Shown here piece by piece: positions 13,520 through 13,720 of a stretch of DNA of 64,000 nucleotides. The translations under genes were made by a program, and so were the position numbers. Each line of letters begins with the position of its first letter. Within the stretch, counting starts at the first letter, position 1. A model generated the notes under the pieces. That model made no database searches. It had not been told where the DNA came from and saw nothing but the letters and a program-made list of their open reading frames with translations. This DNA is from Streptomyces sp. NBC_01283 (lineage in GTDB: Bacteria; Actinomycetota; Actinomycetes; Streptomycetales; Streptomycetaceae), in assembly GCF_041435335.1 (NCBI RefSeq), contig NZ_CP108430.1:1736001-1800000 (forward strand), read 5' to 3'.

Positions 13520-13552
13520 GCCGCCTGCCCGGTTCCCCCGAGGGCAGACGGC
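13520..13552. terminator. Hairpin terminator after the TetR gene, also downstream of the permuted tRNA
   Basis: CTGCCC at 13525-13530 pairs with GGGCAG at 13542-13547, and GCCG at 13520-13523 pairs with CGGC at 13549-13552 across a 1x1 mismatch, around an 11-base loop. It would terminate transcripts coming from both sides. Its outer arm overlaps one strand of the helix proposed for the tRNA precursor. Confidence 0.6.
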
Positions 13553-13709
13553 TCGCGTCAGGTGTCCAGAGATCAAAGCCGGAGCAGGCGACGTGGTGCT
13601 CTGCCGACTGAGCTACGCCGACCCGAAGTCGACGACGGGACTCGAACCCGCGACCTCCCCATTAGGAGTGGAAGTAGCCCGCGCCTTCGCACCTGGACGC
13701 TCTTACCGT
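13548..13709 (-). ncRNA. Candidate structured precursor around the permuted tRNA
   Basis: The flanks of the permuted tRNA are complementary. On the minus strand, GCGT-C-CAGGTG upstream (13700 down to 13690) pairs with CACCTGACGC downstream (13564 down to 13555), ten pairs with one bulged C. Outside it ACGGT (13709-13705) pairs with GCCGT (13552-13548) across an AAGA/GA internal loop, and inside it AGGCG (13686-13682) pairs with CGCCT (13590-13586). These helices would bring the two open ends of the anticodon stem together in one transcript. The limits of the RNA and its promoter are not determined. The pairings come from hand inspection, not from an energy calculation. Confidence 0.55.
13595..13671 (-). 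tRNA. Circularly permuted tRNA-Arg(CCU) gene
   Basis: Read on the minus strand, the 3' half of a tRNA (positions 29-72, 13671 down to 13628) comes first, then a 5-base linker TTCGG (13627-13623), then the 5' half (positions 1-28, 13622 down to 13595). Joined in normal order, the halves give exactly 72 positions. Acceptor: GTCGGCG with CGTCGAC, 7 pairs with one G-T. D-arm: GCTC, loop AGTCGGCA, GAGC. Anticodon arm: CC from the 5' half plus CCA from the 3' half pair fully with TGGGG around loop CTCCTAA, giving anticodon CCU. Variable loop AGGTC; T-arm GCGGG, TTCGAGT, CCCGT. T8, A14, G15-C48, G18, G19, A21, T33, A37 and C56 are all in place. CCA is not encoded. Maturation would need cleavage of both flanks, ligation in the anticodon stem and removal of the linker; no enzyme for this is seen. 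Permuted tRNA genes are known from some algae and archaea. Confidence 0.8.
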
Positions 13710-13720
13710 AGCGATCCCCT

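Follow-up and report, generated by a model that had tools for sequence, protein, structure and literature searches.

A predicted Y RNA of Streptomyces with a whole tRNA fold in circularly permuted order

In the circularly permuted tRNA genes of algae and archaea, the 3' half precedes the 5' half. The same order of parts on the minus strand of a 64,000-nucleotide stretch of Streptomyces sp. NBC_01283 DNA (the window, meaning the whole stretch analysed here) raises the question of whether a bacterium encodes such a tRNA gene or another RNA built like one. Positions 13671-13628 read as tRNA 29-72, 13627-13623 as TTCGG and 13622-13595 as tRNA 1-28. The original prediction was a permuted tRNA-Arg(CCU) gene, and its account of the parts is borne out by direct reading of the sequence. 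All four tRNA stems pair, the two G-T pairs being 5-68 (acceptor stem) and 49-65 (T stem); the anticodon loop CTCCTAA is present on the minus strand; and the tertiary-contact bases U8, A14, G15, C48, G18, G19, A21, U33 and C56 are all in place. In natural order, ARAGORN finds 0 tRNA and 0 tmRNA in the window, and the Rfam tRNA model scores 21.6 bits, below its cut-off of 29, so no ordinary collinear cloverleaf is recognised. When the halves are joined at 28-29, ARAGORN calls a tRNA-Arg(cct), and 13671-13595 is thus a circularly permuted tRNA in the formal sense of a 3' half placed first and a cloverleaf once re-joined.

The re-joined halves are closest, among 13 tRNAs of the same genome, to tRNA-Arg(CCT) (73.6% identity), and their T-loop and D-loop bases are tRNA-like. 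Both points favour a true permuted gene whose transcript would be cut and joined into a functional tRNA, the route taken in algae and some archaea. We conclude instead that 13563-13699 is very probably a YrlA-type Y RNA, a predicted binder of Rsr, with a whole tRNA fold as its core, written as 29-72 and then 1-28. This conclusion draws on co-occurrence and linkage with rsr, on covariation, on YrlA being the best Rfam family, on the genome's own TROVE protein and on the likeness of the loci.

The permuted fold and its enclosing stems

The conserved unit is longer than the 13595-13671 first proposed, which missed the outer stems. The whole conserved RNA, predicted to be a Y RNA of type Y1, spans 13563-13699 (137 nt, minus strand) and matches positions 1-139 of R1, a covariance model made from 54 relatives with the window copy included, at 150.3 bits. 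By blastn, homology to orphan copies elsewhere takes in the RNA, a terminator-like repeat and about 15 bases upstream. Covariation was assessed in an alignment (A1) of 54 sequences, in which copies identical over a 120-nt core were counted once. It excludes six Glu-type RNAs and L055, which is a base short ahead of the T arm, and its L011 entry was lengthened manually at the 3' end. In a structure of 36 pairs named by hand, 97.3% of cells pair across the 54 sequences, and pairing falls to 35-46% when partners are slid by 1-3 columns. Both sides have changed in 23 of the 36 pairs, against a mean of 7.4 in shuffles. The claim that the fold lies beyond chance therefore stands, and covariation in relatives supports the view that this bacterial RNA has a genuine and conserved tRNA fold, circularly permuted. 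A lack of conservation or of compensatory changes in relatives had been named in advance as grounds for refutation; the arrangement passes this test, yet as a member of another RNA class than a tRNA gene.

From the outside inwards, the 5' strand of P1 (GTCCAG, 13693-13698) pairs with its 3' strand (CTGGAC, 13564-13569), with 99.4% of cells paired and both-side changes in three of six pairs across the 54 sequences. The internal loop that follows has on its 5' side GTGCGAA (13686-13692), invariant at six of seven positions in the 54 sequences, and on its 3' side GGCTTTGATCT (13570-13580), where the G of GA and CT are invariant and the A of GA nearly so. Because GTGCGAA sits in the lower stem, the part of Y RNAs to which Ro60 binds according to passages of PMC4726728, it is likely to belong to a predicted Ro60/Rsr site. 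The CUUG of the 3' side aligns with the YrlA consensus in the relative L016. P2 (13677-13685 with 13581-13589) shows both-side changes in eight of nine pairs and has 90.3% of cells paired in the 54 sequences; its pair 18-116 is unpaired in 39 of the 54, and the window copy has a single mismatch, 17-117.

Beyond P2 lies the linker TACTT (13672-13676, invariant in 54/54), and then the anticodon hairpin (13659-13671, tRNA 29-41, with its loop at 13662-13668), whose pairs 29-31/39-41 form in all 54 sequences and show CG to GC and AU to UA or GC swaps. After tRNA 42-43 (13657-13658) comes the T arm (13635-13651, tRNA 49-65), which has 100% of cells paired in the 54 sequences and lies inside the Rfam YrlA match (24-84). 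The acceptor strands, 3' (13628-13634, tRNA 66-72) and 5' (13616-13622, tRNA 1-7), pair with each other in 98.9% of cells, with both-side changes in six of seven pairs (54 sequences). They are closed by the TTCGG loop (13623-13627), which varies in length and letters among relatives and leaves no free 3' CCA end. The D arm (13598-13613, tRNA 10-25) has a stem that is invariant in 54/54 and so gives no covariation evidence. Last come tRNA 27-28 (13595-13596), the 5' side of the lower anticodon stem, which pair with 42-43 in 54/54 sequences.

Where the two halves meet bears directly on how such an RNA would fold. RNAalifold, run on its own, recovers P1, seven of the nine P2 pairs and all four arms, and draws the lower anticodon stem with a local U27-U28 rather than with 27-28 of the D-arm side. 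The D-arm-side pairs 27-43 and 28-42 form in all cells of the 54 sequences, three cells being changed on both sides, whereas for the local alternative one sequence breaks the pairing at each of columns 28/44, or a change on one side preserves it. At positions left free by the search pattern, distinct RNAs from named records show a Watson-Crick pair 30-40 in 111 of 111 and 27-43 together with 28-42 in each of the 110 that have a recognised D arm, nine with G27-C43 and one with U28-G42; with partners slid by one, this falls to 0/110. The compensatory changes in the alignment and the 110/110 result favour the D-arm side and hence the 28/29 join put forward originally, although the two tests are not independent, as some genomes are common to both. 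A single-sequence energy fold of the window RNA gives no cloverleaf (z -1.68), and 12 of 200 shuffles fold equally well or better. Since one continuous RNA can adopt the fold, with its anticodon stem nicked where the Y RNA stem leaves, no splicing or joining enzyme has to be postulated.

The RNA is flanked by putative signals of its own. A -10-like box, TACGGT (13705-13710), lies upstream of P1. In relatives a TAnnGT box is found at a distance of 7-12 nt upstream of P1, each conserved base being present in 51-55 of 56 copies (5 of 61 copies, with a different upstream context, were left out); in the window copy it stands one base closer to P1 than in relatives. In most copies a conserved AATTCGCTCGCC-like stretch is also seen 44-34 nt upstream of P1, some 20-25 nt before the -10-like box, and is possibly part of a promoter or a regulator site. 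On the 3' side is a terminator-like inverted repeat (13520-13552, minus strand), and a similar hairpin trails other orphan copies (L007, L009, L067 and L076-L080). Among the orphan loci compared, homology covers the RNA, this repeat and a few upstream bases, and the neighbouring genes are not shared.

Family resemblance and linkage to rsr

YrlA, a bacterial Y RNA, is the best Rfam family for the window RNA (33.7 bits over 13658-13595; gathering score 69), and at Rfam gathering thresholds no RNA family matches in the whole window. The gathering score, which is a detection threshold and not a biological criterion, is reached neither by the window copy nor by any of the 12 loci scanned (top 46.9 bits). 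Two relatives, L016 of the Y1 type and L025 of the second-member type, align with the YrlA model over its whole length, 1-114. The architecture also agrees: the tRNA-like domain runs from T arm to acceptor hairpin to D arm, as in YrlA, and a long basal stem, of which both P1 and P2 covary, joins the two ends of the RNA. Below its cut-off the YrlA model matches 7 of 14 control genomes as well, and the tandem tRNA-Asn genes of this genome (C1:6253771-6253921) give false matches to YrlA (40.8 bits) and to R1 (57.4 bits, 29-107). Matching tandem tRNAs and control genomes as it does, the Rfam model was rejected as proof by itself.

The tRNA-Asn pair makes it reasonable to ask whether the window RNA arose by chance, or as a relic, from tandem or broken tRNA genes, the 3' part of one followed by the 5' part of the next. 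Such an origin would leave unexplained the full-length conservation, outer stems included, in 75 of 150 genomes (among the matches listed), the compensatory changes in the stems, the promoter-like box upstream and the association with rsr, and we consider it almost certainly wrong.

The spread of the family points to a Y RNA. R1 was run over 150 genomes of the genus, counting only listed rows that span 1-139, down to about 60 bits, and dropping those that span 29-107 only (tandem tRNAs). Among the matches listed, 120 are full-length, in 75 of the 150 genomes, and include second array members and Glu-type copies besides Y1. A TROVE (Ro60/Rsr) gene is present in 81 of the 150 genomes: in 74 of the 75 with a listed full-length match versus 7 of the 75 others (Fisher p 5e-33, kinship ignored), those seven being TROVE genomes without a full-length R1 match among the matches listed. 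Most of the listed RNAs (101 of 120) precede the TROVE match by 577-1163 bp and share its strand; a linked copy occurs in 71 of the 74 genomes. One genome of the 75, G125, has its listed full-length match (C2:137818-137956) and no TROVE match. Adjacency to the Rsr/TROVE gene, a YrlA trait, is thus found for the family, while the window copy itself is unlinked.

Named genomes searched by pattern agree, with at least 120 loci. The 80 listed names are mostly Streptomyces, S. viridochromogenes and S. antibioticus among them, and include Kitasatospora, Microbispora, Planomonospora, Planobispora, Actinomadura and Nocardia, and a start of an rsr-like gene lies within 600 bases in 102 of 119 usable pattern matches, among the matches listed. 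Full-length R1 matches also occur in other families of the class. Raw tallies of 111/150 (blastn), 142/150 (R1) and 193/296 (R1) were set aside as measures of prevalence, as they count in tandem tRNAs or short stretches of ordinary ones.

The genome of the window has what a Y RNA would serve, at a distance. It encodes one TROVE protein (524 aa), which matches two solved TROVE-domain chains, and its rsr gene, at C1:6970433 (6.97 Mb), is 5.2 Mb from the window RNA. The neighbours of this rsr, phoX and a GntR regulator, are shared with the array-bearing locus L084, and phoX also with L085; the order here is phoX-rsr-GntR, as against phoX-[Y array]-rsr in relatives. The phoX-rsr gap here is about 117 bases, and R1 finds no RNA there. 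By R1 the genome has two Y RNAs, 1749563-1749699 (the window copy) and 392612-392748, a third match being the tandem tRNA-Asn artefact. The second copy (C1:392612-392748, minus strand; L076:5013-5149) has a tRNA-Glu-like D arm and a 7-nt loop, CTGCCAA.

Related sequences were also seen on mobile elements. In a phage search, 29 records matched, none over more than 80% of the query. Two Brevundimonas phages of more than 310 kb, ON529850.1 (H1) and ON529857.1 (H2), carry an unannotated match of about 74% to query 18-116, and these stretches are possibly phage Y RNAs, to judge from sequence likeness. A plasmid search matched five records; a 678-kb Streptomyces plasmid (NZ_CP109366.1:298578-298724, H21) has a copy 70% identical over 99% of the query.

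The anticodon arm and its loops

The part of the RNA that most resembles a decoding tRNA is also the part that sets it apart from YrlA. In L016 the anticodon hairpin is a 15-nt insertion relative to the YrlA consensus, and a complete anticodon arm is absent from the Rfam YrlA consensus. Across the 54 sequences U33 and A38 are invariant and positions 36-38 are UAA in 45, while position 35 ranks fourth and position 34 eleventh in variability among the 137. Triplets 34-36 in the 111 named RNAs are CAU (36), GAU (25), CUU (19), GUU (17), GCU (6) and six rarer ones, 11 in all with U36 fixed by the search pattern, and no decoding identity is conserved. In another survey, which also comprised 111 permuted units, 60 have the three-pair hairpin, the other 51 being mainly second array members (with a D-arm-side stem or a long variable arm) and parser misreads.

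Several observations weigh against a working tRNA-Arg(CCU). The anticodon differs among relatives, covariation extends to stems beyond the tRNA, the loop at the end of the acceptor stem varies in length, most copies precede the Rsr/Ro60 gene and an ordinary tRNA-Arg(CCU) gene stands at C1:5283246 in the same genome. We therefore regard a permuted tRNA-Arg gene as very improbable and rejected it as the main reading, given the free anticodon, the enclosing stems and the ordinary gene.

All but one of the 111 triplets (110/111) are anticodons in use in the genome of the window, and A34 is nearly absent (1/111). The loop of the window copy, CTCCTAA, is identical to that of its own genome's tRNA-Arg(CCT). 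Of 140 units, 90 met the 7-nt hairpin rule, some of them spurious, and 64 of these 90 loops are identical to tRNA loops of the genome of the window, from Met, Lys, Ile, Asn, Asp, Glu, Arg, Cys, Gly and Pro tRNAs; the list of that genome's tRNA loops covers 55 tRNA genes, and the Rfam search had 69 matches. Real tRNA loops make up 11 of 14 distinct CTNNNAA loops versus 21 of 64 possible ones (p about 1e-4, post hoc, kinship ignored), and the same test on the 11 NNU triplets of the named RNAs gives p 0.013, again post hoc and ignoring kinship.

It could be that the RNA is a Y RNA whose anticodon arm merely caps a junction, its tRNA-like loops being a by-product of gene conversion with tRNA genes. 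The demands of folding could account for the retention of U33, A38 and the stem, whose neighbours at positions 34 and 35 shift from one relative to another; many loops are real tRNA loops, as conversion would give, and 26 of the 90 match no tRNA loop of the genome of the window. The single A34 among 111 RNAs and the excess of real loops (11/14 against 21/64) are harder to fit to such a cap, and we regard it as a substantial possibility, though not a probable one. The scarcity of A34 and the same excess, with the caveats of post hoc testing and kinship given above, suggest that loop identity in these Y RNAs is under selection or recurrent exchange.

Other members of the family resemble other tRNAs. 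The tRNA-Glu-like paralogues L067 and L077 have the loop CTCTCAA of tRNA-Glu(CTC), the D arm of the Glu-type group is close to that of tRNA-Glu(TTC), and the loop of this genome's own Glu-type copy, CTGCCAA, matches none of its tRNA loops. About 205-250 bp after Y1 in L018, L030, L033 and others is a second array member, tRNA-Leu-like and permuted, with a TGGCGGAA D arm and a long variable arm. In L016, L030 and L049 a short middle RNA lies between Y1 and Y2, with the basal motifs CTCCCGGTGCGCAGG ... TCTCGGGAG and no tRNA-like domain. In other actinomycete families (L103, L105) four Y-like RNAs occur in a row, some of them tRNA-Gln-like with a TGGTGTA D arm.

Proposed working and relation to known RNAs

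We propose a model in which the 5' and 3' ends would form P1, followed by the internal loop with its invariant GGUGCG and by P2, which would open into the anticodon hairpin, the T arm, the acceptor hairpin closed by its short loop and the D arm. Across the nick at 28/29, pairing of 27-28 with 42-43 would complete the lower anticodon stem. To this point the model follows the covariation. By likeness to other Ro RNPs, P1 and the internal loop would hold Rsr. Enzymes that bind tRNA would recognise the tRNA-like domain, which would gate or tether the partners of Rsr, as with PNPase in Deinococcus. The phoX-rsr array of relatives being missing here, the window RNA would act in trans from its own predicted promoter.

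Aminoacylation as a tRNA is not expected, as the acceptor end is closed, and decoding is unlikely given that closed end, the free anticodon and the ordinary tRNA-Arg(CCU) gene. Given that its loops often copy those of real tRNAs without adhering to any one identity, the domain is probably a tRNA mimic aimed at a protein that examines or cleaves anticodon loops. By analogy, a full anticodon loop could in principle allow these RNAs to be bound or cut by anticodon nucleases. The RNA probably has a role in RNA quality control as a tRNA look-alike and is not a new route to making tRNA. It is tempting to go further and to speculate that the Y RNA sets of actinomycete Ro60 mimic whole tRNAs, in units permuted at 28/29 with real loops (Met, Ile, Lys, Asn, Arg, Asp, Glu, Cys, Pro and others) and in Glu, Gln and long-arm Leu paralogues. 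They might then stand in for one another as decoys or sensors, directed at modification enzymes and at nucleases of the anticodon loop, and relay tRNA damage to the Rsr RNA-quality machine; we hold this wider scheme only tentatively and think it rather unlikely as a whole.

Several of these elements have precedents. Mimicry of permuted tRNA by Y RNAs is already known: passages of PMC11472068 state that 6CU1, a Y RNA from bacteria, can be superposed on tRNA through a circular permutation. Passages of PMC8394870 and PMC4726728 describe bacterial Y RNAs that bind Rsr by the basal stem and have a tRNA-like domain modified by tRNA enzymes, and a Deinococcus Y RNA that tethers Rsr to PNPase. Loss of rsr is reported to reduce the amount of other Y RNAs (PMC4726728). 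The YrlA domain might competitively inhibit an anticodon nuclease of which YrlA is not a substrate, according to part of PMC7790460. Among other actinomycetes, Y RNAs are reported in Mycobacterium smegmatis (PMC4726728) and Propionibacterium propionicum (PMC11277228). What looks new is the complete anticodon arm, with its stem nicked at 28/29 and loops that often copy real tRNA loops. The literature searched, which lacked primary bacterial Y RNA papers, yielded no mention of a whole anticodon arm nicked in this way and bearing real, exchangeable loops, nor did a search for Streptomyces with Ro60 and Y RNA return a paper; an earlier description of the anticodon arm or of the Streptomyces arrays is possible.

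A puzzling bacterial permuted tRNA gene thus becomes a well-supported tRNA-mimic Y RNA, and suggests that Y RNA mimicry of tRNA can extend to the anticodon arm. It raises the question of whether Ro60/Y RNPs meet factors that read or cut anticodon loops. The family scores under the Rfam YrlA threshold, and ARAGORN did not report the RNA in the loci tried; searches for permuted tRNAs in bacteria should be expected to collect Y RNAs and tandem tRNAs.

Like the permuted tRNA genes of algae and archaea, the window RNA has its 3' half before its 5' half; unlike them, it does not have the look of a tRNA precursor, with conserved enclosing stems, a closed acceptor end, a free anticodon and an ordinary tRNA gene in the same genome. 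The permuted two-piece tmRNA of some bacteria offers another bacterially encoded permuted tRNA-like domain, as passages of PMC3978253 relate, but ARAGORN finds no tmRNA in the window and the gene linked in relatives is rsr. From YrlA (Rfam RF02553; PDB 6CU1) the RNA differs in its family's complete anticodon arm, the 15-nt insertion of L016, in a score under the Rfam gathering score and in a window copy unlinked to rsr. With YrlA it shares the basal stem formed by the ends, the permuted order of T arm, acceptor hairpin and D arm and, in most of its relatives, the genetic link to the Rsr/Ro60 gene.
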